Shown here: one piece after another, positions 17,810 through 38,958 of the stretch
How the letters are laid out: each line of letters starts with the position of its first letter
Position numbering within the stretch: the first letter of the stretch is position 1
Virus record (IMG/VR): IMGVR_UViG_3300031851_000059
Coordinates: 1 to 39,718 of that record
Strand: one strand, 5' to 3'
Origin: a virus
DNA: 39,718 nucleotides
The notes under the pieces: generated by a model
Databases searched by the model: none
Seen by the model: the letters and a program-made list of their open reading frames with translations, nothing else
What the model was told of the DNA's origin: nothing
Made by a program: the position numbers and the translations under genes

Positions 17810-20077
17810 TCAACTTCGCTTCTTGCGTTGAAGATCCCTGAAACTCACTCGCTCTCGTTTCGGTATCGAAGGTAGATCCGTTCCAAAAAGCAATGCGCCC
17901 TGCATGGAAGCGGCGACGGCGGAGCCGACAAGGCAGTCGAGCCAGTGGTTGTCGGGTTGCTCAGGACGCGGCTTCCATTCATCGACGGTTCGGCCGCGGC
18001 CTTCGGTTTTGACGAAGTACTCGGCGGTGATTTGCTCGGCGAACATTCGGTGTTGTTCGGCTCGGTCACCAAAGATCGAAAGACAACCTCGATCGCCCAT
18101 CGCGACGGCGAGTCTCGCGTGCGTGAAGGACTTCCACCAGTTGGTGTCGTAGATCACGTGTCGGATCGCTCGTTTGCCGTGGATGGACGGGACTCGCCAG
18201 TTCAAGCCGACTCGGTCGCCCGGGCGCCGTTTGTATTCGCTGAATGGGTTGGATGAAGCACCGACGAATCGACCGTGGGACGGAAGCAGGATCGAGGCGA
18301 AGGGGCTTTGCCGGCAGAATTGGTAGACAACGTTGGTGGAGTGTCCCCAGTTCGCATCGATCAAGCAACGCTCGATCTTCATCGCAGCACCATCGTCTCG
18401 GTACCATTCTTTACCGAGCAACGTTTCGGTTAGCGATTCGAGACCGGCGTAGATGCTACCTTCGAGGCCAGTGCCTTCTGCAGCCGAAGCGAGCGTCAAT
18501 CGTGCGTCGCGCAGCGTGAAGTAGTTTCGTTTTTGGTCGGGATAGGTTCCGTAGTCGATGACGTAGCCGGTGAAGTCGTCTTCCCAGGCAGCAATGACGT
18601 AAAACAATAGCTTTTGCTGGACGTCGATGAATGCGGTGACGTGGTTGGCGGCGATGGGTAGCTGGAATTGCGGCATGCCGTTGGTTTTGTCGGCGACCTG
18701 ATCGGCGGTCAGTTGATCCGCGCCGACCGTTTCTTCCGGCAGCGGTTCGTTCTGGTACTCGGCGAAGAACGCGGCTTCGTCTTGAAGCTTCAAGTTCATC
18801 GCGTGCTGGATCGCCGATAGTTCGTCGTGGTTGAATCGCTCGGCCCAAGCGACCTCAGCGCCTTGGTCCATGACCTCACGATTGTCGCGATAGAAATTGG
18901 TGCCGGCCACGCCACCATCGCCCGCGCGAAATCCTTCGGCACGGACCTCGGCGTAACGTTGCCAGAGAGTCTCGTTCGTTGGGAACGAGTACACCATTCG
19001 CGTGCGTTCGCCGTTCCATTCGGGATGTTTATCGCGGTCGAGGATGTTGTCGGCCATGTCGCCTGGCCGAATCACAGTGCAGGGCATGATGCCCGAGATC
19101 TTTTTGCCTGGGCCGGCAAGCCCGAGCACCGCGCCGGCCAGGATGGCCTCACGGTTTGCACATTGCGATAGCGATCGAGCGGATTCATCGGTTTGCGGAT
19201 CGTCGAGAACAACAAGCGAAGGACGGACCGTTTTACCGTCGGGTCGTTTAAACTTCATACCGCGGATACGTCCGGTGAGACCGGCGACTTTAATGATCGC
19301 ACCGCTAGCCTTGCTGTCGGCGATCGTTGGCAAGACGACTTCTTTCGCAGTCCAGCCGATCTGGGTTCGCTTTCCATTGAACAACTGGCCGTTCGCGCGG
19401 TTCGAGATGCCGTCGAGGGCTTGGATCGGGAAACATACTTCGGGATAGTCGGCTGCCAGTAGATCGTTGCTATCGAGTTCGGTTTTGATCGAATCGAGCA
19501 TGTCGCACGCGTGACCTTCGTCGCTGCCGATCAGGCAAACGAAATCGCGATAGCCATTGAGCACCGCCCAAATGCACGCAACTTCCGCCAGTGAGCTTTT
19601 GCCCGATCCGCGAGCCATCGCAAGCGAGAACAATCCGCCTCGAATCACGGCTTCTTCAATCTTGGCGATGACTTTCAAATGGTCGGGCGACCAGGCCAGA
19701 TGAAACGTCAGATTGAAGTAGGCTTCGCAAAAGAACCGAAAGCTGCCGGCGGCTTTGGCTTTGCGTTCCGGATCCGCGACTTCGGGCATCTCGCCGATGT
19801 CTCGTCCGGCCAACGCGATGGCTGCGTTACGCTCGCGCGACTTAGCTTTCAGCTTGGCGTATGGATCTTCATCGCCTTGCGGTTTTGGCTTGTGGCGTAC
19901 TTCATGGAGCCATGACGCATAACGAAGCAAATCGACGTGTCGGCCGTCTCCGATGCGGTTGCCAGCTCGAGTTCGATGGCGATGGAGTTGCCGTTCGTTG
20001 ATGACTTCGCCAAGCGGCGTGGAGTTCAACAACCGACAACATTCGCTCGGCCGAAGTTTGCGAGGGTCAATCGCCAC
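17810..20077 (-). CDS. Terminase large subunit (gpA-like) with N-terminal DNA-binding-like domain
   Basis: The 755-aa protein starts at a GTG with AAGGAG eight bases upstream. Residues ~10-60 (RPSECCRLLNSTPLGEV to LLRYASWLHEV) form a small domain also found in the preceding gene. MARGSGKSS near residue 154 is the Walker A motif and PSLVVLDDPQTDE near 290 the Walker B motif. Later, FIDVQQKLLFYVI, CLIDANWGHST and a C-terminal LDCLVGSAVAA fit the nuclease domain of phage terminases of the lambda gpA/DUF-type group. The enzyme cuts and pumps DNA into the prohead. It is the second gene of the leftward virion operon. Confidence 0.9.
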   Translation of the reverse strand: MAIDPRKLRPSECCRLLNSTPLGEVINERQLHRHRTRAGNRIGDGRHVDLLRYASWLHEVRHKPKPQGDEDPYAKLKAKSRERNAAIALAGRDIGEMPEVADPERKAKAAGSFRFFCEAYFNLTFHLAWSPDHLKVIAKIEEAVIRGGLFSLAMARGSGKSSLAEVACIWAVLNGYRDFVCLIGSDEGHACDMLDSIKTELDSNDLLAADYPEVCFPIQALDGISNRANGQLFNGKRTQIGWTAKEVVLPTIADSKASGAIIKVAGLTGRIRGMKFKRPDGKTVRPSLVVLDDPQTDESARSLSQCANREAILAGAVLGLAGPGKKISGIMPCTVIRPGDMADNILDRDKHPEWNGERTRMVYSFPTNETLWQRYAEVRAEGFRAGDGGVAGTNFYRDNREVMDQGAEVAWAERFNHDELSAIQHAMNLKLQDEAAFFAEYQNEPLPEETVGADQLTADQVADKTNGMPQFQLPIAANHVTAFIDVQQKLLFYVIAAWEDDFTGYVIDYGTYPDQKRNYFTLRDARLTLASAAEGTGLEGSIYAGLESLTETLLGKEWYRDDGAAMKIERCLIDANWGHSTNVVYQFCRQSPFASILLPSHGRFVGASSNPFSEYKRRPGDRVGLNWRVPSIHGKRAIRHVIYDTNWWKSFTHARLAVAMGDRGCLSIFGDRAEQHRMFAEQITAEYFVKTEGRGRTVDEWKPRPEQPDNHWLDCLVGSAVAASMQGALLFGTDLPSIPKRERVSFRDLQRKKRS

Positions 20078-20273: not shown

Positions 20274-20421
20274 GAATCGGTCCAACTGCTAGGGATAGGC
20301 GAACATGCAACACGTCGCGACACGCCCGCGACTGTCGCGAAGCGAACCATGTTTCGGGTACTCGGCCACATGTTTTGGGCGGCGACAGTGGGCCGGAACA
20401 GGCCGCCTGTGGGCATGAAAA
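20274..20421. other. Divergent intergenic region between virion and plus-strand modules
   Basis: This stretch separates the leftward packaging operon from the first rightward module. It must contain the promoter for the terminase genes, but I see no clear -35/-10 pair and no copy of the ACCGGGTAGGT element. It holds short GC-rich inverted repeats around 20310-20330 (CGTCGCGACACGCCCGCGAC). Confidence 0.4.
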
Positions 20422-20495
20422 GAAAGCTGCAGATTCCTCGAAGATTACTTTCTGACTTCGCTTGAGGTCCTCCGAAACGCATGGCTCATGTGTCA
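20422..20495 (+). promoter_or_regulatory. Plus-strand repeat promoter P1
   Basis: This is copy 1 of a ~65-80 bp repeat. The core is TTCGCTTG (20457-20464) followed by GAAACGCATGGCTCATGTGT (20474-20493). A -35-like TTGAGG and a -10-like TCATGT are spaced by 18 bases. The amidoligase ATG lies ~65 bases further on. Copy 1 differs most from the others between TTCGCTTG and GAAACGC. Confidence 0.6.
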
Positions 20496-20556
20496 CACGC
20501 GAACGCAAAACGCATCGCGAAACACATCGAACCAACCACCCATCGGAGACCTAGCC

Positions 20557-21414
20557 ATGCAAGCCAACGACATCGCCTTTGGAATCGAAATCGAAACCAC
20601 TTTGCCCGGCCGCGACCGCACGCCGATCGGCGGATACCACAACGGATTGCCGGTCGCCTGGCTGCCCACGGGATGGAAGGCAGAACGCGACAGCAGCATC
20701 CGCACACCGGCCGGACGCAAACCGGCCGAGTTCGTATCACCGATCCTTCGCGGATACGAAGGGCTTCAAAACGTGGAACGGGCGGTCGACGCGATCAAGG
20801 AACGGGGCGGACGGGTAAACGAGTCTTGCGGGCTTCACATTACGGTGACTTGGAATGGCGACGCGGCCGCGCTGGCCAGATTGATTTCTTTGGTAAGCAA
20901 CCACGAGAAAGCCATCTACGCTTCAACCGGAACGCGACGACGCGAGCGAAACAGCTGGGCCAAGCAAATCAAAACCTATGGCAACAAAGACGCGGCCAAA
21001 CGACGATGCGAAAGCGACCGCTACCACCTTTTGAACCTGACGCACCTCGCACGCGAACGATCGCGAATCGAATTCCGGGCCTTCGGGGGAACGCTCAACA
21101 AAACGAAACTGATCGGATACATCCAGATGGTGCTTGGCTTGGTAGAGCTGGCCTTGAACTCGAAGCGATGCAGCGGCTGGGATTACAACAAGAAGCCCGG
21201 AACGAAAAGCTGCTGGGATCGACCCACGGCAGGTCACGGCGAAACGGAACTCAACCGACTCTTCTACCGACTTGGCTGGACAAAGGGTTGGTACAAAGGC
21301 GACCTTCGCGACAAACGTTTTGGCCAACTTTCGCAAGGCGACGCGACCTGCGATTGGAAGCCGGTCAAAAAGAAGCTGCTTGACTTGGCCCGCAAATACG
21401 ACCAAGCGGCCTAA
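20557..21414 (+). CDS. Amidoligase-family enzyme
   Basis: The 285-aa protein starts at an ATG with GGAG eight bases upstream. Key motifs are AFGIEIETT (residues 7-15), ESCGLHITVTW (89-99) and RIEFRAFGGTLN (170-181), the conserved blocks of the Amidoligase_2 group with a glutamine-synthetase-like/GCS2-like fold. Such enzymes join a carboxylate to an amine using ATP, perhaps making peptide or lipid amides or modifying proteins. Family members often occur in phages and plasmids. It is alone in the first plus-strand module, with a terminator directly after. The substrate is unknown. A second open frame fully overlaps this gene in another frame and was judged spurious. Confidence 0.8.
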   Translation: MQANDIAFGIEIETTLPGRDRTPIGGYHNGLPVAWLPTGWKAERDSSIRTPAGRKPAEFVSPILRGYEGLQNVERAVDAIKERGGRVNESCGLHITVTWNGDAAALARLISLVSNHEKAIYASTGTRRRERNSWAKQIKTYGNKDAAKRRCESDRYHLLNLTHLARERSRIEFRAFGGTLNKTKLIGYIQMVLGLVELALNSKRCSGWDYNKKPGTKSCWDRPTAGHGETELNRLFYRLGWTKGWYKGDLRDKRFGQLSQGDATCDWKPVKKKLLDLARKYDQAA

Positions 21415-21433
21415 CGCCTTCTTCTTTTCTTCA

Positions 21434-21468
21434 ACGCCGCCGAGCTTCGCGCGGCGTTTCTTCGTTTT
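21434..21468 (+). terminator. Terminator after amidoligase
   Basis: ACGCCGC (21434-21440) pairs with GCGGCGT (21451-21457), followed by TTCTTCGTTTT. It lies 19 bases after the amidoligase stop. Confidence 0.75.
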
Positions 21469-21586
21469 GTGGCCGCGACGCTCGTCAACTGCGGGCGGTT
21501 TCGGGTAGGTCAAAGGTAGAGGGGCAGCTTCTGGGACATACGCACACGCGGCCGATGTGGGCGACACGGGCAGCATCAATAAACCT
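21469..21586 (+). other. Spacer between modules 1 and 2
   Basis: No gene is seen here. The stretch carries TTCGGGTAGGTCAAAGG near 21500, a partial likeness to the ACCGGGTAGGT element but on the other strand, and a CACACGCGGCCGATGTGGGC segment that resembles the stretch upstream of P3. Confidence 0.3.
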
Positions 21587-21655
21587 GAGAAAAGCCTGCG
21601 AATTACTGGCTGGATTCGCTTGCTGTGTTTGGAAACGCATGGCTCATGTGTGTCA
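21587..21655 (+). promoter_or_regulatory. Plus-strand repeat promoter P2
   Basis: Copy 2 has GAGAAAAGCCTGCGAATTAC at its left end and the core at 21615-21651 (TTCGCTTGCTGTG, then GAAACGCATGGCTCATGTGT). The -35-like TTGCTG and -10-like TCATGT are 18 bases apart. The start codon lies ~48 bases downstream of the -10. Confidence 0.65.
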
Positions 21656-21696
21656 TCGGAAGACGGTTTTTCATTTACCCAAACGGAGAAACAAAC

Positions 21697-21972
21697 ATGA
21701 CCCTTGGCGAACTGATCGGCTTGCTTGAAGAGTACCGCGACGAGCACGGCGAAGACTGCGAAGTGCGGTTGATGACGCAACAGAACTGGCCGTTTGAAAA
21801 CCGCATCGCCGGCGTAACCAGCGGAGCGGAGATGAACGAAGCGGAGCACGACGACCCGCACGAGTTCGCGGACGACCAAGACGTCGCCGAAGACGCGATG
21901 GTCTACATCGTCGAAGGCGGGCAGCTTTGCTACGGCAGCAAACGAGCGTGGGAAACCTGCCGCGATTGCTAA
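21697..21972 (+). CDS. Small acidic hypothetical phage protein
   Basis: The ATG at 21697 follows GGAG at good spacing. The 91-aa protein is strongly acidic: MTLGELIGLLEEYRDEHGED, CEVRLMTQQNWPFENRI, and MVYIVEGGQLCYGSK near the end. The E-V-R-L-M...N.P.E..I.GV pattern resembles small phage/plasmid proteins of unknown role seen near DUF4314 genes. No motif gives a function. A perfect hairpin terminator follows 15 bases after its stop. Confidence 0.7.
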   Translation: MTLGELIGLLEEYRDEHGEDCEVRLMTQQNWPFENRIAGVTSGAEMNEAEHDDPHEFADDQDVAEDAMVYIVEGGQLCYGSKRAWETCRDC

Positions 21973-21986
21973 ACGCGAACCAACAT

Positions 21987-22020
21987 GCCGGCGGCGAGAA
22001 AGATCGCCGCCGGCCTTTCT
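21987..22020 (+). terminator. Strong terminator after 91-aa gene
   Basis: GCCGGCGGCGA (21987-21997) pairs perfectly with TCGCCGCCGGC (22004-22014) over a 6-base loop, followed by CTTTCTATTC. This 11-bp stem is the strongest in the window and could let part of the transcripts through to the next gene, which has no promoter repeat of its own. Confidence 0.85.
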
Positions 22021-22044
22021 ATTCAACAACACAGGAACGAACCA

Positions 22045-22254
22045 ATGACGAATCGAGAGAACATTGAAGATGCCTACGCGGCCGCGCACATTCGGGCTTT
22101 GACCTTGCTGGAAAACTTGCATGAAAGGGTCGAAGACTTGCCGGCACCAGGCAATAACGACCATCCGATCGATTGGGGCCATGTTGGTTCCTTGAATCAT
22201 CTGTGCGAACAGCTGGCCGAGTTGAAGAAGCAATTCGCGCTGGACGAGGACTGA
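22045..22254 (+). CDS. Small hypothetical protein
   Basis: The 69-aa protein starts MTNRENIEDAYAAAHIRALT and ends LCEQLAELKKQFALDED. It is helical and acidic, with no recognised motif. AGGA lies upstream of the ATG. It sits between two strong hairpin terminators, so its expression depends on read-through or an unseen promoter. Confidence 0.65.
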   Translation: MTNRENIEDAYAAAHIRALTLLENLHERVEDLPAPGNNDHPIDWGHVGSLNHLCEQLAELKKQFALDED

Positions 22255-22279
22255 TCGGCATCCGCTTTCCTTTCCCAAC

Positions 22280-22316
22280 ACGCCGCGACGTTGGCAACCT
22301 GTCGCGGCGTTTTCTC
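22280..22316 (+). terminator. Terminator after 69-aa gene
   Basis: ACGCCGCGAC (22280-22289) pairs with GTCGCGGCGT (22301-22310), followed by TTTTCTC. The ACGCC...GGCGTTTTCTC pattern recurs at 23638-23670. Confidence 0.85.
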
Positions 22317-22387
22317 ATGTGCGGGTTCCTTGAGGCATTCGGATCGGACCGCACACGTGGCGAGTGTCGCCGGCCGGACGAAACCGC

Positions 22388-22456
22388 AGAAAGACTGAAG
22401 ATTCCTTCCGGACTTCGCTTGCTGTGTTCCGAAACGCATGGCTCATGTGTGTTAAC
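22388..22456 (+). promoter_or_regulatory. Plus-strand repeat promoter P3
   Basis: Copy 3 has AGAAAGACTGAAGATTCCT at its left end and the core at 22414-22450, ending ATGTGTGTTAAC. The -35-like TTGCTG is at 22419-22424 and the -10-like TCATGT at 22443-22448. ACGCATG and CATGTGT form an imperfect palindrome around GCT, a possible repressor site over the -10. Confidence 0.65.
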
Positions 22457-22504
22457 GCCGACGGGGCAAACCAAGAAACAAACCTTTCTGCAGGAGACGA
22501 AACC

Positions 22505-22747
22505 ATGCCCAAAGAGAACAAGACCGCCGACCTTCGCGGCGCGATGCAACAACTTGACCCAGCGACCTACCAAGACATTCGCGAAAGCTATTACCGCATC
22601 GCCGACAACCTCAAACCACTGGCCGACGCATTGGAGAAAGCCGACGCGGATCTCGGCGGCCAGGCTGGACCGCTGCTCGACGAGCATTTTCTCTTCCTGC
22701 AGATGTACGAACAACTCCGCAAGAGCAACCTCGGCGGGGTGGTGTGA
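22505..22747 (+). CDS. Small hypothetical protein
   Basis: The ATG at 22505 follows AGGAG. The 80-aa protein (MPKENKTADLRGAMQQLDPA..., YRIADNLKPLADALEKADAD) is helical and acidic, without a known motif. It is the first gene of the third module. A 10-bp hairpin follows. Confidence 0.65.
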   Translation: MPKENKTADLRGAMQQLDPATYQDIRESYYRIADNLKPLADALEKADADLGGQAGPLLDEHFLFLQMYEQLRKSNLGGVV

Positions 22748-22760
22748 GACGGAAGCCGAA

Positions 22761-22797
22761 ACGCCGGCCCCGGCTCTTCGGTAGCTCGGGCCGGCGT
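22761..22797 (+). terminator. Hairpin after 80-aa gene
   Basis: ACGCCGGCCC (22761-22770) pairs with GGGCCGGCGT (22788-22797). No T-tract follows, so it may be a pause, a weak terminator or an mRNA stabiliser rather than a full stop. Confidence 0.55.
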
Positions 22798-22864
22798 CGT
22801 CGCGGGCGGTCCCCGCGGCCTGACGATGGCAGCCACGCATCAAACTTGAAAACGGAGAAACGAA

Positions 22865-23347
22865 ATGAAGAAGGCAGACGTAAAGATCGGCGGTGAGTAC
22901 TACGCCAAGGTCACGAACAAGAAGGTCGTTGTGCGGATCGACGCCGAGAACTCTTCCGGCGGCTGGGACGCGACGAATCTTTCGACAAACAAAAAGGTGC
23001 GCATCAAAACGGCCGGCCGATTGCAGGGTTCGGCTCGCGCCACTGCGACTGGTTCGGAACCGACCAAGCGAGCGAAGAAGCGCACCGCCAAGAAAAAGTC
23101 TGATTCGCCGGCCACCGAGAGGAAGCTCTCCTGTGTAAAGGCGGCGATCAAAGTCTTGGAAGAGAGCAACGATCCGCTGAACACGCAAGAAATGATCGCC
23201 TCGATGACGGAGGCGGGGTACTGGACTAGTCCAGGCGGGAAGACTCCGCACGCTACGCTGTACTCGGCGATCCTCCGCGACTTGGCTAAAGGCGAGGAAA
23301 GCCGATTCGTGAAGACCGAGCGCGGCCGGTTCACGGTTCGCAGTTAA
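22865..23347 (+). CDS. HARE-HTH winged-helix protein
   Basis: The 160-aa protein has an N-terminal part (residues 1-55, KIGGEYYAKVTNKKVVVRID) like a small beta-barrel, a basic linker (TKRAKKRTAKKKS) and a C-terminal winged helix. The latter, CVKAAIKVLEESNDPLNTQE then MIASMTEAGYWTSPGGKTPH and ATLYSAILRDLAKG...RFV...GRFTVR, is the HARE-HTH domain also found in RNA polymerase delta and chromatin proteins. It likely binds DNA or RNA polymerase and could regulate the phage or host. AGA-rich upstream sequence contains GGAG. Confidence 0.8.
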   Translation: MKKADVKIGGEYYAKVTNKKVVVRIDAENSSGGWDATNLSTNKKVRIKTAGRLQGSARATATGSEPTKRAKKRTAKKKSDSPATERKLSCVKAAIKVLEESNDPLNTQEMIASMTEAGYWTSPGGKTPHATLYSAILRDLAKGEESRFVKTERGRFTVRS

Positions 23348-23365
23348 ACGAAAGGGACGGATTCG

Positions 23366-23599
23366 ATGCAAAAGCACTTCCACGATTTACGAGAGGTCGA
23401 TGACTTGGCGGACGGCGAGCGGGCTTTGCCCGAACCCGGCGTGACGTATGACTTGCGGACGATGGAGAACCGCACGGTTGATTCCGAGGTCGAATGTGTC
23501 TTCCGCAATGGCGACACGTTGTTCGCCCGCACGGCCGCCGGCGAGACGTATCCGGTGACGGGTGAAGGTTCGTACGTCTTGGTTCCACACGGCTTGTAG
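23366..23599 (+). CDS. Small hypothetical protein
   Basis: The 77-aa protein (MQKHFHDLREVDDLADGERA..., VECVFRNGDTLFARTAAGET) starts 18 bases after the HARE-HTH gene, with GGGACGG upstream. The C-terminal half looks like a short beta-barrel. No function can be assigned. Confidence 0.6.
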   Translation: MQKHFHDLREVDDLADGERALPEPGVTYDLRTMENRTVDSEVECVFRNGDTLFARTAAGETYPVTGEGSYVLVPHGL

Positions 23600-23637
23600 C
23601 CGCAACATTTCTCTGCTTGGCGAACGCTTCGCCACAC

Positions 23638-23670
23638 ACGCCCGACGTTGGCCACGATCGGGCGTTTTCT
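23638..23670 (+). terminator. Terminator after module 3
   Basis: ACGCCCGA (23638-23645) pairs with TCGGGCGT (23658-23665), followed by TTTCTC. It ends the third module before P4. Confidence 0.8.
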
Positions 23671-23743
23671 CGTTGGTCGGCAAGTTGGCCGCGCGAATTC
23701 TATGGCCCACGCGCGGCAACGTCGGCCGCGATTTCTTCCCGTT

Positions 23744-23824
23744 GAAAAACATGGCGAATCTCTCCGCATGTTTTCCGAAGTTCGCTTGCTGTGCTCGCCA
23801 ACGCATGGCTCATGTGTGTTAACG
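23744..23824 (+). promoter_or_regulatory. Plus-strand repeat promoter P4
   Basis: Copy 4 begins with GAAAAACATGGCGAATCTC and has the core at 23781-23817 (TTCGCTTGCTGTG, then AACGCATGGCTCATGTGT) ending in GTTAAC. The start codon of the DUF4314 gene is ~43 bases from the -10-like TCATGT. Confidence 0.65.
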
Positions 23825-23858
23825 CGTCCGAAACCACTTTTCACGAAAGCAGAAACTG

Positions 23859-24104
23859 ATGAAACACACTTGCAACCTCAAGGCGGGCGACCGCGTCCGC
23901 CTGGTTTCGATGACCGACGATCCCGACCCGATTCCCGCCGGCACCATCGGAACGGTCGTCGGTATGTATCCGCAGAGCGATTGGACGCAAGTCGATGTCG
24001 ATTGGGACATCGGCCGATCGCTGATGCTTTCCATTCCGCCGGACCGAGTCGTGCGACTCGCGGCCGGCGACTCCAAGACCGATTCTTCAACGAAAGGAAA
24101 TTGA
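23859..24104 (+). CDS. DUF4314 family protein
   Basis: The 81-aa protein has KAGDRVRLVSMTDDPDPIPA, GTIGTVVGMY, VDVDWDIGRSLMLSIPPDRV, an almost textbook DUF4314 sequence. This small SH3-like barrel is common in phages and plasmids; its role is unknown. The stop is three bases before the next start. Confidence 0.85.
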   Translation: MKHTCNLKAGDRVRLVSMTDDPDPIPAGTIGTVVGMYPQSDWTQVDVDWDIGRSLMLSIPPDRVVRLAAGDSKTDSSTKGN

Positions 24105-24107
24105 AAC

Positions 24108-24425
24108 ATGTCCACCAGAGCCGTAATCGCGACGCAAACTTACGACCGAGGTATCCTCGCCACTTACTTGCATTTCGATGGCTACCCAGAACACGTTCTC
24201 CCAATACTGGTCGATGGCTACTTGGATCCGGACGAAGCGATCGAGTTGATCGAAGGCGGCGAACTGCGATCGCTATCTCCGCGACCGGCCGAACCAGAGT
24301 ATTTCGAGAACAGCCGACGCACCGAGGAATTGAAAGACGAATCGGAGCTCGACCGGCTTGCCCGCTACCTGAACGCGGAGCACATCTATTTCTACGATGA
24401 CATGTGGCGTCATCGGAAGGTTTAG
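24108..24425 (+). CDS. Hypothetical phage protein with FDGYPEHVLPIL motif
   Basis: The 105-aa protein (MSTRAVIATQTYDRGILATY, LHFDGYPEHVLPILVDGYLD) matches a pattern I recall from small phage and plasmid proteins near DUF4314 genes, where a Y.H.DGYPE.VLP.L block is conserved. It is acidic and has YFYDDMW near its end. GGAAATTGAAAC precedes the ATG. It is the last plus-strand gene, and the convergent methyltransferase ends nine bases away, with no terminator between. Confidence 0.65.
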   Translation: MSTRAVIATQTYDRGILATYLHFDGYPEHVLPILVDGYLDPDEAIELIEGGELRSLSPRPAEPEYFENSRRTEELKDESELDRLARYLNAEHIYFYDDMWRHRKV

Positions 24426-24434
24426 CAACGAAGG

Positions 24435-25745
24435 TCATCGCATACTCTCCTCGCGAGCGCCGACGGGAATCGGCGACTCGCCGGTCCGCTCTAGCACCGC
24501 AGCTTTGCCGGTGAAACGCTGGAAGCGGTCGACGATCACGTCGCAATATGGCGGGTCGAGTTCCATCAAGAACGCCTTGCGTCCGGTTTGTTCGGCCCCG
24601 ATCAAGGTCGAACCGCTGCCGCCGAACAGGTCCAGCACGTTGTCGCCTTTCCGCGACGAGTATTGCATCGCTTTCACCGCTAGTTCCGCGGGCTTGCCGG
24701 TGAGATGCTCCAACTGCTGCGGCGGGATCTTCTTGATATGCCACAAGTCGGTTGCGTTGTTGGGACCGTAGTACTTGTGGCCCGCTCCCTCTCGCCAACC
24801 GTAGAACGCCCATTCGTGTGCACCCATGAAATCCTTGCGCGTCATGACCGGGTGCAATTTGTCCCAGATGATGGCTTGCGAGAAATACAGCCCAGCCGCT
24901 TCCAAGACCGCCGGATAGTTTCCGATGTTCGAGAAGCCTCCCCAGATATAGAAGCATCGACCCGGCTCCAAAACGCGAGCGATGTTGCCGAACCAGGCTT
25001 TGAGCAACCGATCGAATTCTTCGTCGGACACGAAGTCGTTTTCCAACGGACGGTCCTTCGCTCGCATCTTCTTCGGGCCATCTTTGGACTTACCCTTGCC
25101 GGCCTCGAACGAACTGTTGCCCGCCGCGATCGCGTTCTTACTGCGAGGTTCGACCTTCACGTTGTACGGGGGATCTGTATTGCAAAGTTGAATCTTCGCG
25201 CCATCGAGTAGTCGATCAAGGTCTTCGGCGTTGGTCGAGTCACCGCACAGCAGTCGGTGGTCTCCGAGGATCCAGAGGTCGCCCGGTTGCGTGACGGGAT
25301 CGTCGGGCGGCTCGGGAACATCGTCGGGATCGGTTAGTCCTGGCTCAACGCCTGGATCAAGCAGCTTGGCTAACTCGTCACTGTTGAATCCAAGCAACTC
25401 GCAATCGAACCCATAGTTTTGAAGCTCTCCGACCTCGATCGGTAGTAGGTCGTAATCCCACTCCGCGTTTTCGCCGGTACGGTTGTCAGCGATTCGGTAG
25501 GCCTTCACCGCCTCGGGTTCGAGGTCCGTTGCAATGTGCACCGGGACCTCGGCAAGGTTCAACTGCTTGGCTGCTTTCCAACGGGTATGGCCGACGATGA
25601 TCACACCGTCGTGATCGACCACGATTGGCTGGCGAAAACCGAATTCGTTGATGGATTGGACGACCGGAGCGACCGCATCGTCATTGATTCGAGGATTCTT
25701 TTCGTAAGGCTTGATCCGATCAAGCGACCACATTTCGACCTGCAT
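24435..25745 (-). CDS. ParB-like nuclease/DNA methyltransferase fusion
   Basis: The 436-aa protein begins with a ParB/Srx-type domain (SLDRIKPYEKNPRINDD, VGHTRWKAAKQL; residues 6-90). A linker rich in Asp and Pro follows, then a site-specific DNA methyltransferase with DPPY (191-194) before FGGSGST (374-380), the order of beta-class N6-adenine or N4-cytosine enzymes. No restriction gene is nearby, so it probably protects or marks phage DNA. The ATG at 25745 is preferred to the one at 25754 because AAGGA lies at good spacing. This ribosome site lies next to a hairpin arm. Confidence 0.85.
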   Translation of the reverse strand: MQVEMWSLDRIKPYEKNPRINDDAVAPVVQSINEFGFRQPIVVDHDGVIIVGHTRWKAAKQLNLAEVPVHIATDLEPEAVKAYRIADNRTGENAEWDYDLLPIEVGELQNYGFDCELLGFNSDELAKLLDPGVEPGLTDPDDVPEPPDDPVTQPGDLWILGDHRLLCGDSTNAEDLDRLLDGAKIQLCNTDPPYNVKVEPRSKNAIAAGNSSFEAGKGKSKDGPKKMRAKDRPLENDFVSDEEFDRLLKAWFGNIARVLEPGRCFYIWGGFSNIGNYPAVLEAAGLYFSQAIIWDKLHPVMTRKDFMGAHEWAFYGWREGAGHKYYGPNNATDLWHIKKIPPQQLEHLTGKPAELAVKAMQYSSRKGDNVLDLFGGSGSTLIGAEQTGRKAFLMELDPPYCDVIVDRFQRFTGKAAVLERTGESPIPVGAREESMR

Positions 25746-25754
25746 GGGCAGCAT

Positions 25755-31991: not shown

Positions 31992-32231
31992 TTAAAGGGA
32001 CTGGATGGGTTCGATCTCGAAGTTGCCGTCGGCATCGCTGGTGACGAGGTAGTGACGGAAGTCGACTTGAACGACGAAGCGTTGTTCACTGCCAAGCTGT
32101 TTCCGCAGCGATTTACACGCTCCGGTGAACTCCTTGCTGATCTCATTGAAGCGATCTTGGATTCTCAGATAGCGACCCACGGCCAGTGAGATGGAGACAC
32201 GTCGTTCGATGTCGGTTGCTAGGTTTTGCAT
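31992..32231 (-). CDS. Small hypothetical protein, first gene of the replication operon
   Basis: The 79-aa protein (MQNLATDIERRVSISLAVGR, ISKEFTGACKSLRKQLGSEQ, FVVQVDFRHYLVTSDADGNF) has no known motif. Its pattern (an N-terminal helix region then a beta part) could be a small DNA-associated protein. It begins 60 bases downstream of element B. Confidence 0.6.
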   Translation of the reverse strand: MQNLATDIERRVSISLAVGRYLRIQDRFNEISKEFTGACKSLRKQLGSEQRFVVQVDFRHYLVTSDADGNFEIEPIQSL

Positions 32232-32290: not shown

Positions 32291-32323
32291 AATAGACCTA
32301 CCCGGTTCACGTCCGTACCGACG
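32291..32323 (-). promoter_or_regulatory. Repeat element B (ACCGGGTAGGT), overlapping sigma gene end
   Basis: On the minus strand it reads CGTCGGTACGGACGTGA then ACCGGGTAGGTCTATT. The sigma-factor stop TGA lies inside it. It differs from element C in few positions and leads into the replication operon. CCGGG here also pairs with CCCGG ten bases later, but this pairing is not conserved in the other copies. Confidence 0.55.
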
Positions 32324-32915
32324 AAGTGCGGTCGAAATATTCGGCCAGCCCGGCGTCCTCGAAGTGCTCACGAATCTTGCGAAACCAGCCCGATGCAGTG
32401 GTTCGAGCGACACCGAACTTGTCCGCGATTTCGGTGATCGTCATCGTCTTTCGCAATTCGATGAGGTGCCGCTGGTGGGCGGGTAGCTCGTCAATTCGGT
32501 TTTGCAGATCGCTACGTAGATCGGATAACTCGGACTGGCTGCGTCGCATCCGGCCGGTGTGGCGGTCGAGTGCTGTATCGGAGATCACGTGGGAAATCCG
32601 CAGCGTTTCGCCACTTGATTGAGTCAGTGGCGTGCTCAACAAAATCGTGTTTGCATCGCACCGCTTCTCTGCACAACGATTGCGGACAATGTTGGCGACG
32701 TATCGTTCAACGATGGCAGTAACGAACTTGTTGCGATGGCCTTCACGCGAGTCGTACAGCCGCACGCCTTGCATGACTCGGACGTAAATGTCCTGTTGCA
32801 GATCGTCGCGGTCGACTTCGGTGTAGCCATACTTGCCGATCAGGCCGCCCGTTTTTCTCTCGACTAGGTTGCGAGTGAACGTGTCTTCGTATGGATTGAA
32901 ATTGGATTGTGTCAC
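32307..32915 (-). CDS. Sigma-70 family RNA polymerase sigma factor
   Basis: The GTG at 32915 with AAGGAG at good spacing gives 202 aa. The region-2-like part (DDLQQDIYVRVMQGVRLYDS then NKFVTAIVERYVANIVRNRC) and the region-4-like part (ELPAHQRHLIELRKTMTITE, IADKFGVARTTASGWFRKIR) fit a small two-domain sigma factor. Longer upstream starts lack a ribosome site. A terminator-like hairpin lies upstream, and element B overlaps its end. A phage-encoded sigma factor could direct RNA polymerase to phage promoters; this role is inference. Confidence 0.75.
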   Translation of the reverse strand: MTQSNFNPYEDTFTRNLVERKTGGLIGKYGYTEVDRDDLQQDIYVRVMQGVRLYDSREGHRNKFVTAIVERYVANIVRNRCAEKRCDANTILLSTPLTQSSGETLRISHVISDTALDRHTGRMRRSQSELSDLRSDLQNRIDELPAHQRHLIELRKTMTITEIADKFGVARTTASGWFRKIREHFEDAGLAEYFDRTSSVRT

Positions 32916-32973
32916 GGTGAATCTCCTTGGCCGGAGACATGCCGAGGCGTGGACGACGGACCGCAGGCCAACG

Positions 32974-33038
32974 AAAAAAGCGGAGGCAACTGTGTCGAAC
33001 CAAGGTGACTTGGTGTCGCCCACAATCGCCTCCGCTTT
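32974..33038 (-). terminator. Terminator or attenuator before sigma gene
   Basis: AAAGCGGAGGC (32977-32987) and GCCTCCGCTTT (33028-33038) form a perfect 11-bp stem around a ~40-base loop with its own CCAAG/CTTGG hairpin. On the minus strand it ends in CTTTTTTCG, so it fits a terminator. Only 59 bases remain to the sigma start, so sigma expression needs read-through or a promoter in that short space. Confidence 0.7.
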
Positions 33039-36467: not shown

Positions 36468-36905
36468 TTATTCGGATGCGGTGGACACGTTTGGTCCAAC
36501 TTCGCGAGACAGTCGTTTCCACATTCGTCGCTGCTTCTTCCAGGCGGGTGTCAGGGCGATCGGCTGAAGCTGGCGTATCGAAATCGGATCGCGTCCAACG
36601 GTGATTTCTTCTGCGAAAAGGATCGCCTCCTGAATGTCCGGAGCGAGCAACCGCAGGTTCATGATTTGCGTCAATCGAGCCCGAGTCACATGGCCTAGTC
36701 GTGCAAGATCTGCGTAGTCGCCGACCGTGCCATCCCCGATGAGCTTCTCAAATCGGATCGCCAATGCCATCAGTTTGGTGATCTTGGGAAGTCGCCCTTG
36801 CGGTGCATCGATGTCCGATTCAGGTTCCGATGTGGCAACGCGTCGCGCCCCGGGGCCTTGGCGATTGAACGATATGGCGAGTTCAATTTTAATTTCGTCG
36901 CTCAT
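36468..36905 (-). CDS. HTH-like protein of the recombinase operon
   Basis: The 145-aa protein has RLPKITKLMALAIRFEKLIG, DYADLARLGHVTRARLTQIM, NLRLLAPDIQEAILF and ending LTPAWKKQRRMWKRL. A ParB-type or KorB-like HTH (D..x..LA..G.VTRAR.TQIM.L) is likely. Proteins of this type follow large serine recombinases in many alphaproteobacteria and planctomycetes. It may help the recombinase choose direction; this is inference. Its ATG overlaps the recombinase stop (ATGA). Confidence 0.7.
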   Translation of the reverse strand: MSDEIKIELAISFNRQGPGARRVATSEPESDIDAPQGRLPKITKLMALAIRFEKLIGDGTVGDYADLARLGHVTRARLTQIMNLRLLAPDIQEAILFAEEITVGRDPISIRQLQPIALTPAWKKQRRMWKRLSREVGPNVSTASE

Positions 36906-38467
36906 TGGGCGGTCTCCGCCAGCAAGCGTGCTTCGACCGATTTGATTCCGGCCAAATGAAACGTGATCGCAATCTTCTCGCCTTTCCCGTCGTACTCGAT
37001 ATGGCGGATCAACATCTGCAGGATCTCTACTCGTTCCTGTGGAGCCAACGTGTCCCAGAGTTCGTCAAAGTGTGCTAGCGCCTCGGTCGCTTCGTCGGGA
37101 TCGAGGATTGTCTTCCGCAAACCATCCGAATCGATACGGATCGTGGAAAGCCGTTTCTCGTTTTCGCGAACTCGGTCTTGCAGGTCGGCCAACACGCCGA
37201 GCAGGACGGAATCGTCGCCGCCGGCCGGAAGTTTACGAATCACTTCTCCAAGTTGATTCTGCCACTGCGTGAGGTTGCGTTGGATGAGAAGCTCTTCGGT
37301 GGCTAGCGAAGCAATCTGTTCGCGGACGGCGGCAGATGCTTTTTCGATCGACTTCCTTGCCAAAGAGCGATCACGACCGATGGCACGTACTTGTTCTACG
37401 ACAAAACGCTCGATCTCGCCGGCGGGGACTGATTTCGTCGGGCACTTGGCCCAACCTCGCTTCTGAGCCTGCAAACAGACGTAATAGCGATACCGCTTGT
37501 TGCCGGCTTTGATTGAATGCGACGGAGTCATCGAGCAATCGCACGCTTTGCAACGCAAGATCCCTTTTAGCAATGCTCCATACTTATTTCTAACCTCGCC
37601 GCCACCGGACCGTCCGTTGCGATTGAGCCTCGCTTGGACCTTCTCGAAGATTTTTAGATCGACTATTGCGTCCTGTTCACCCTCGTGAATCTCGTCTTTG
37701 TAGCGAAGCTTGCCGATGTAAGTGACGTTGGTCAGCAGTCGGTGCAGGCTGGTTTTGTTGAATGGCTTTCCGCCTCGGCACGTGCCCCGCTTGGTCGTCC
37801 ATTGCTTTGTCACCCAAGCTCGACGGTCCAATTCATCAACCACTGCCAGTAGCGATCGCCGTTCCAAGTACAGGTCAAAGATTGCTCGCACCCGTTCTGC
37901 TTCCACGGGATCGACGATGAGTTTCGAGGTTTCCGCTGTGACGTTGTATCCCAGCACCGGCATTCCACCCGACCATTTCCCCTTGCGTCGCGCGGCAGCG
38001 ATCTTGTCTCGCGTCCGTTCCGAAATGATCTCCCGTTCAAACTGCGCAAACGAAAGCAGGATATTGAGTGTTAGCCGGCCCATGCTGCAGGTCGTGTTGA
38101 ATTGCTGCGTCACCGACACGAAAGAAACGTTGGCCTGGTCGAACTTCTCCATAATGCGAGAGAAGTCGAGTAGTGATCGGCTGAGTCGGTCCACTTTGTA
38201 GACCACGACGCAGTCGATCTTGCCAGCTTCAATGTCCTCCATCATTTGCTTAAACGCCGGCCGGTCCATGTTGCCACCAGTGAAACCACCGTCGTCGTAA
38301 TGCGTTGGCAGACATGTCCATCCTTCGTGCATTTGGCTTGCGATGAAAGACTCGGCCGAGTCGCGTTGGGCGTCCAAAGAGTTGAACTCTTGCTGCAGAC
38401 CCTCTTCGGTCGACTTGCGGGTGTAGATCGCGCAGCGGACTTGTTTGTCGGTATTGGGTTTGATCAT
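36902..38467 (-). CDS. Large serine recombinase (integrase)
   Basis: The 521-aa protein begins with the resolvase domain RCAIYTRKSTEEG, with Ser19 as likely nucleophile, then NSLDAQRDSAESFI, VYKVDRLSRSLLDF and LLSFAQFEREIISERTRDKI. The recombinase domain (residues ~165-270, VLGYNVTAETSKLIVDPVEA) and a zinc ribbon (CKACDCSM... WAKCP) follow, then a coiled coil. This is the normal layout of phage integrases that insert at attB/attP without tRNA need. The gene overlaps both neighbours by four bases. Confidence 0.9.
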   Translation of the reverse strand: MIKPNTDKQVRCAIYTRKSTEEGLQQEFNSLDAQRDSAESFIASQMHEGWTCLPTHYDDGGFTGGNMDRPAFKQMMEDIEAGKIDCVVVYKVDRLSRSLLDFSRIMEKFDQANVSFVSVTQQFNTTCSMGRLTLNILLSFAQFEREIISERTRDKIAAARRKGKWSGGMPVLGYNVTAETSKLIVDPVEAERVRAIFDLYLERRSLLAVVDELDRRAWVTKQWTTKRGTCRGGKPFNKTSLHRLLTNVTYIGKLRYKDEIHEGEQDAIVDLKIFEKVQARLNRNGRSGGGEVRNKYGALLKGILRCKACDCSMTPSHSIKAGNKRYRYYVCLQAQKRGWAKCPTKSVPAGEIERFVVEQVRAIGRDRSLARKSIEKASAAVREQIASLATEELLIQRNLTQWQNQLGEVIRKLPAGGDDSVLLGVLADLQDRVRENEKRLSTIRIDSDGLRKTILDPDEATEALAHFDELWDTLAPQERVEILQMLIRHIEYDGKGEKIAITFHLAGIKSVEARLLAETAQ

Positions 38468-38958
38468 GATGCCGCCTTTCCAAGTTTGAAGAATGCATAG
38501 CCGCTGCAGTGTTGGCCAGTGATCGCTTTGGCAACCGCCGTTAGTGATTTGAAGAATTCACCCTCGTACTCAAATCCGTCTTCGCGAACGGTGCAGATAT
38601 AGAGCTGGCCTTTGTAGGTTCGCTTCAGTTGCGAACCCGGAGGTGGCAGACGGTCATCGTGTTCGATCGAAACCTTCGATGTGACCGTCCGCTGTGGCTG
38701 AGCCTTTGGCTTGGGCGCATCGGGTGGCGGCGACATCCGTAGATCCGCATCGTTGGCGATTTCCAGTGCACGGTTGCGTGCACGTTTGGAAATATCGCCT
38801 TCCACGTTCGACTGCATCCGCCAGGCGATGCGTTTGATCAGCCAATTCTTATTGGAGGCATTGGTCGCCTCGCCAAAGACGTCGGCATACTGTTTACGAA
38901 GTTCGCGGACGGTACATTTCTCCATCGCGCGAACCTCCTTGGCTATGTTCAGCGCCAT
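38464..38958 (-). CDS. DUF2924 protein of the recombinase operon
   Basis: The 164-aa protein (MALNIAKEVRAMEKCTVREL, RKQYADVFGEATNASNKNWL, IKRIAWRMQSNVEGDISKRA) is a clear DUF2924 member. These proteins go with large serine recombinases in alphaproteobacterial and planctomycete elements; role unknown, possibly DNA binding. The first ATG (38958) has AAGGAG; a second (38925) has AAGGAGG and would shorten the protein by 11 residues. The C-terminal part (DDRLPPPGSQLKRTYKGQLY) carries a small beta domain. Confidence 0.8.
   Translation of the reverse strand: MALNIAKEVRAMEKCTVRELRKQYADVFGEATNASNKNWLIKRIAWRMQSNVEGDISKRARNRALEIANDADLRMSPPPDAPKPKAQPQRTVTSKVSIEHDDRLPPPGSQLKRTYKGQLYICTVREDGFEYEGEFFKSLTAVAKAITGQHCSGYAFFKLGKAAS

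Follow-up and report, generated by a model that had tools for sequence, protein, structure and literature searches.

Promoters recognized by extracytoplasmic function (ECF) sigma factors usually carry boxes of the GGAAC/CGTC type, mycobacteriophage L5 and the phages of cluster K carry repeated one-direction sites (stoperators and start-associated sequences, respectively), and bacteriophage N4 uses hairpin promoters. The closest case described so far is that of phages phiEco32 and 7-11, which encode a sigma factor of their own, only a distant relative of the sigma-A family, and carry a phage-only motif upstream of their middle and late genes (PMC4331800). Next to nothing is known of how planctomycete phages control their genes. 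Here we describe a repeat that occurs four times on the plus strand of the IMG/VR virus record IMGVR_UViG_3300031851_000059, the 39,718 bases of which (possibly an incomplete genome) constitute the window analysed throughout. We predict with high confidence that this repeat is a promoter of one phage family, and it is probably read by a dedicated, non-housekeeping factor. An ECF-like sigma factor encoded at 32307-33023 is the leading, though tentative, candidate for that factor, and the explanation as a whole is one that we hold with modest confidence.

An earlier, sequence-only reading of the window had placed four plus-strand copies of the repeat shortly ahead of start codons, and both parts of that claim were borne out. 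The sequence ACGCATGGCTCATGTGT is present exactly at 20477, 21635, 22434 and 23801, always on the plus strand, and 63, 45, 54 and 41 nt, respectively, separate the end of the core from the ATG. No further match was found in the window at up to 3 mismatches (shuffled sequences give 0.10 ± 0.30). TTCGCTTG is located upstream of each of these matches at a constant gap of 12 nt, and over 68 nt the copies share 66-79% identity with the reference copy. The upstream similarity, previously noted over about 30 bases, is indeed present but reaches further, with A-tracts extending to about -56.

About 290 copies were counted in related phages, and planctomycete prophages together with uncultured phages yielded a non-redundant set of 152. 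The general element is [C/G]GCTTG-N15-CATGGCTCATGTGT, preceded by phased A-tracts; among the copies compared, the right flank TGTG is fixed and the left flank is variable. When gaps of 11-19 were permitted in the scan, the gap was 15 in every one of 55 viral stretches, and a gap of 15 was found in 573 site occurrences versus 20 at all other gaps together, with overlapping loci counted repeatedly. Counted from the core, A peaks at -25, -36, -46 and -56 across the 152 copies, giving a period of 10.8 bp, a spacing that we take to be the layout of phased A-tracts or of an UP element. From this geometry, the RNA start is predicted near core position +17, a site at which A is common, and hence at about 20497 for the first copy. 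A start codon opening an open reading frame (ORF) of at least 50 aa was found automatically after 116 of 126 non-redundant copies, 113 of them with a Shine-Dalgarno sequence, at a median distance of 46 nt from the core and within 32-62 nt in all but a few; in the remaining 10, judged by eye, an ATG occurs in the same range. The window and 15 related prophages each contain 4-7 copies, on a single strand and in a single block, and in these regions a position weight matrix that gives true copies more than 36 bits detected no other site above 8 bits, a clean gap in scores that is partly by construction because the matrix was trained on core matches, with a profile search based on E-values as the independent check. 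A search for the repeat inside unrelated coding regions revealed no instance.

Prophages of Rhodopirellula, Rubripirellula, Stieleria, Aporhodopirellula and other planctomycetes carry the full pattern, and the core is present in 54 viral-contig stretches, mostly in the same context, with a few (e.g., L033, L043 and L071) that look chance-like. Matches with up to 2 mismatches were almost confined to prophage arrays in 8 host genomes, and 19 of 392 sampled planctomycete genomes contained any match at this level, many of them single and chance-like; weak matches appeared at the control rate in most genomes. A profile built from 52 copies and run against 11 whole genomes, scoring only 150 first-look candidates per genome, returned nothing but the arrays at E < 1e-4, the next matches having E ≥ 0.0017. 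Because neither the pattern nor the profile search detected host-chromosome sites outside prophages, the host appears not to use the element, and we rejected the idea that the phage has borrowed a host promoter. Phages at a greater distance carry the drifted forms GCTGGCTCATGTGT, CATGCGAACTGTGTG and CATGGCTCCATGTGT, in which the layout of the element is retained, and relaxed sites in these phages numbered 15 on the array strand, 1 on the opposite strand and 0 in shuffled sequences.

The -35/-10 pair proposed by the sequence-only reading stood in one half: a -35-like TTG is present, but a TATAAT-like -10 is absent. A scan for sigma-70 promoters (TTGACA and TATAAT at a spacing of 16-18) yielded 0 sites in 20280-24700 versus 1.1 expected by chance, and an ordinary housekeeping sigma-70 promoter was rejected on that basis. 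The lack of a usual promoter pattern, together with the lack of host-chromosome sites, suggests that the viruses probably use a dedicated reader. The proposal of a family of promoters for coordinated plus-strand units fared well, given the strict spacing, the phased A-tracts, the position ahead of start codons, the hairpins before copies 2-4, the restriction to one strand and to phages, and the many copies in relatives, and the same sequence features make a common regulator, also proposed earlier, probable.

In the mechanism that we propose, a dedicated factor would bring RNA polymerase to the element by reading the -35-like box [C/G]GCTTG together with the -10/start box CATGGCTCATGTGT exactly 15 bp downstream, with the upstream phased A-tracts probably assisting as an UP-type element. 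The four window copies would start four short plus-strand units, so that a block of conserved small phage genes would be switched on together. The factor would be the ECF-like sigma factor from the early (replication) operon of the phage, and its place in that operon would make the array block a middle-time regulon. Transcription initiation, its timing and the identity of the reader are all features that we infer.

The product of the candidate sigma gene (32307-33023, minus strand, with translation probably starting near 32915) scores 43.9 bits against the curated sigma-70/ECF model TIGR02937, above the cut-off of 42.9, and matches PHROG 1740, ‘RNA polymerase sigma factor’, with an E-value of 3.4e-10; all 19 of its relatives match TIGR02937 at E ≤ 0.01. 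The two halves of its structural model, which has a predicted local distance difference test (pLDDT) score of 80, match sigma2 (8b3z, 2.2 Å over 72) and sigma4 (4nqw, 1.9 Å over 61). The family is very divergent: the window protein falls below Pfam cut-offs, recovered only one relative when used as the single query in viral contigs, and gave nothing meaningful in a phmmer search against solved structures. In host genomes, a relative of this sigma factor is encoded 6-15 kb from nearly every array, on the opposite strand, with arrays and sigma genes matching at 4/4 in Rhodopirellula rubra CECT 8075, 2/2 in several genomes and 3/3 in G389. It stays with the array where terminase and head genes differ (the second and third elements of G389, and those of G347 and G341). 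The loci in question (L237-L244) combine the array, the methyltransferase, the sigma gene and a serine recombinase beside a different terminase of the HNH type with small and large subunits, and from its gene content we regard this set as a control cassette common to phages of different build. One uncultured phage contig contains a tandem pair of sigma-like genes (L031:12355-13541), and two more relatives, L181 and L183 in genome G006, occur without a nearby array; one of these is 69% identical to the window protein over a short stretch, and both are probably prophage remnants. A conserved 79-aa protein (31992-32231) was also considered as the reader and rejected, being 68-85% identical in close relatives and not detected in many distant carriers.

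Several observations weigh against the sigma factor as the reader. Between prophages that have the same promoters and terminases sharing 85-88% identity, its own sequence identity is only 20-35%, and the residues of its recognition helix differ while the promoter is unchanged. Over 30 phages, a set that includes some weak distant promoter calls, promoter distance does not track sigma distance (rho -0.02; partial -0.15) but tracks methyltransferase distance (rho 0.54; partial 0.55, P 0.001), although linkage and common descent would also produce the latter correlation. A sigma factor of this family was not detected in the carriers L349, G417 and G129, the last of which may be a remnant, and G426 carries a different sigma-70-like protein. 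Among 39 well-covered loci, 26 have both promoter and sigma gene, 1 has the promoter only, 10 the sigma gene only and 2 neither, a split that makes the link no stronger than shared phage ancestry gives. The sigma factors keep a basic residue where the recognition helix begins and three more in the region-2 helix, which would permit a shared recognition. The hypervariable sigma gene resembles a specificity or immunity locus. It is conceivable, though doubtful, that a nearly frozen promoter common to this planctomycete temperate phage family is read by another conserved factor and that the rapidly changing sigma factor has a separate, phage-specific and perhaps immunity-like purpose. A host-encoded alternative sigma factor or activator reading the same promoter is unlikely: it would fit a promoter that is nearly constant across phages with strongly differing sigma factors of their own, the few carriers lacking the phage sigma family and the distribution of carriers over several planctomycete genera, yet such a factor should have host targets, whereas the chromosomes outside prophages hold no site, and distant phages carry drifted versions of the element. 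Rather less probable is control by another conserved phage protein, for example the ParB-domain methyltransferase or the HARE-HTH protein encoded within the array. Wherever a carrier offers enough sequence, the methyltransferase gene adjoins the array, with 62-93% identity, and promoter distance follows methyltransferase distance as given above, a correlation for which adjacency and descent alone would suffice; methyltransferases of this kind are also found in phages without a detectable element, and the HARE-HTH protein was not detected in some carriers (G129 and G426).

The remaining explanations are less probable again. A family of repressor operators overlapping ordinary promoters, by analogy with the stoperators of L5, would account for many near-identical copies in fixed orientation in a temperate phage. 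We consider it improbable, because what is conserved consists of two parts at a fixed gap, with phased A-tracts, and is not a compact site, the copies occur only 32-62 nt ahead of start codons, no ordinary promoter was found beside them, and a regulator of matching conservation was not found. The CATG-GCT-CATG dyad, previously described as covering the -10, occurs in the window, but the 152 non-redundant copies do not preserve it as a dyad: its left arm is altered in 16, the right arm matches in 1 of those 16, and variation in the outer pairs is confined to the left side. Because the arms vary independently, the palindrome was rejected as an operator, and symmetric conservation of both half-sites, expected in a repressor-operator test, was not observed. 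A stem of 7 bp closed by a loop of 3 nt can form in the window copies, which would suit a single-strand element, either a hairpin promoter of the N4 type or a hairpin in the RNA of the 5′ leader; this is very improbable, since the same single compensated change and one-sided outer pairs speak against a stem. An RNA hairpin was rejected because the fold is not better than those of shuffled sequences (z -0.5), and a gene for a giant virion RNA polymerase was not found in the window, where the largest ORF has 920 aa, a result limited by the possible incompleteness of the record. That the repeat serves as a recombination site for cassette shuffling is the least probable of these proposals: every copy opens a gene cassette and the number of cassettes varies among phages, but the strict promoter-like geometry and start-codon distance, and a gene order and content that are mostly kept and not shuffled, argue against it.

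The genes that the predicted promoters would drive form a distinct block. All large genes of the window are on the minus strand except for this plus-strand block at 20.5-24.4 kb, which is placed between the terminase gene (17810-20077) and the gene of the ParB-domain DNA methyltransferase (24435-25754, minus strand; PF01555 and PF02195), the alternative candidate reader, which invariably neighbours the array in convergent orientation. Copy 1 (20420-20493) comprises A-tracts at about 20420-20455, CGCTTG at 20459-20464 and the core at 20480-20493, and precedes a gene for an amidoligase-like protein of 285 aa (20557-21414; PF12224, E 1.1e-20; PHROG 2443). This unit ends in a terminator-like hairpin at 21433-21458 (-16.5 kcal/mol), which is weak compared with shuffles (z -1.1). 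Copy 2 (21578-21651; CGCTTG at 21617-21622, core at 21638-21651) is followed by genes for two conserved proteins without assigned function, one of 91 aa (21697-21972; 79-97% identity in 15 prophages) and one of 69 aa (22045-22254; conserved in related prophages). A strong hairpin is located between them (21987-22014; -26.3 kcal/mol, z -5.7), and another closes the unit (22280-22311; -20.2 kcal/mol, z -4.0).

Copy 3 (22377-22450; CGCTTG at 22416-22421, core at 22437-22450) leads into genes for a protein of 80 aa (22505-22747), the HARE-HTH protein of 160 aa (22865-23347; PF05066, E 4.3e-12) and a protein of 77 aa (23366-23599), the first and last of which are conserved in related prophages and have no assigned function; a hairpin at 23638-23665 (-16.9 kcal/mol, z -2.4) ends this unit. 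Copy 4 (23744-23817; CGCTTG at 23783-23788, core at 23804-23817) precedes genes for a DUF4314 protein of 81 aa (23859-24104; PF14192, E 8.9e-11) and a protein of 105 aa (24108-24425; PHROG 1987). All features of the array are on the plus strand, and T-rich tails follow all four hairpins. Because a terminator-like hairpin is located ahead of each of copies 2-4, each appears to begin a new unit, which gives four short transcription units. The genes of the array are present in nearly all of the 15 related prophages at identities of about 40-97%, so that "accessory region", the term used in the sequence-only reading, is not apt; these are conserved phage genes, and an interpretation as accessory or moron cassettes was rejected.

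Two further observations concern the remainder of the window. A second conserved block, AAACATGCGGC ... CGCGACAGTCG ... ACGTGT, which the window shares with 14 related prophages, was noted on the minus strand at 20300-20400, upstream of the terminase genes, and is a candidate late promoter. A serine recombinase gene, a DUF2924 gene and a conserved gene for a helix-turn-helix-like protein of 145 aa form one module at 36468-38958, which is missing from some related prophages within the stretch examined.

Relatives of this phage were not found among 50,697 described phage records (the best terminase match was 24-27% over about half the length, and there was no DNA match), and a description of such a promoter was not found in the literature searched, in which subscription papers were covered incompletely. 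As a sequence tag, the element cleanly marks one phage family, and its array defines a block of about 8 conserved genes, mostly without assigned function. It also raises the puzzle of how a frozen promoter is read, given that the obvious reader is hypervariable. Should the element prove active, it could be an orthogonal promoter in Planctomycetes, for which genetic tools are few.

Compared with the known systems, the locus shares with phiEco32 and 7-11 the combination of a phage sigma factor and a phage-only promoter motif. Those phages are lytic and their motif, TAATGTATA, is short (PMC4331800), whereas the phages considered here are temperate and the element combines two boxes, one of them -35-like, with phased A-tracts; it also serves only one block of small genes, and its link to the sigma factor is that of a candidate. 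As with ECF sigma factors of the TIGR02937 superfamily, a two-domain protein of sigma2 and sigma4 would face a promoter of two boxes at a fixed gap, but the boxes are GCTTG and CATGGCTCATGTGT and thus unlike those of usual ECF promoters. A stem with a 3-nt loop is possible, as in the hairpin promoters of N4, but the hairpin is not conserved and a virion RNA polymerase was not found. Like the L5 stoperators and the cluster K sequences, the element recurs many times in near-identical form and with a single orientation relative to the genes; its sequence and layout are different, with promoter geometry, a fixed gap and upstream A-tracts.

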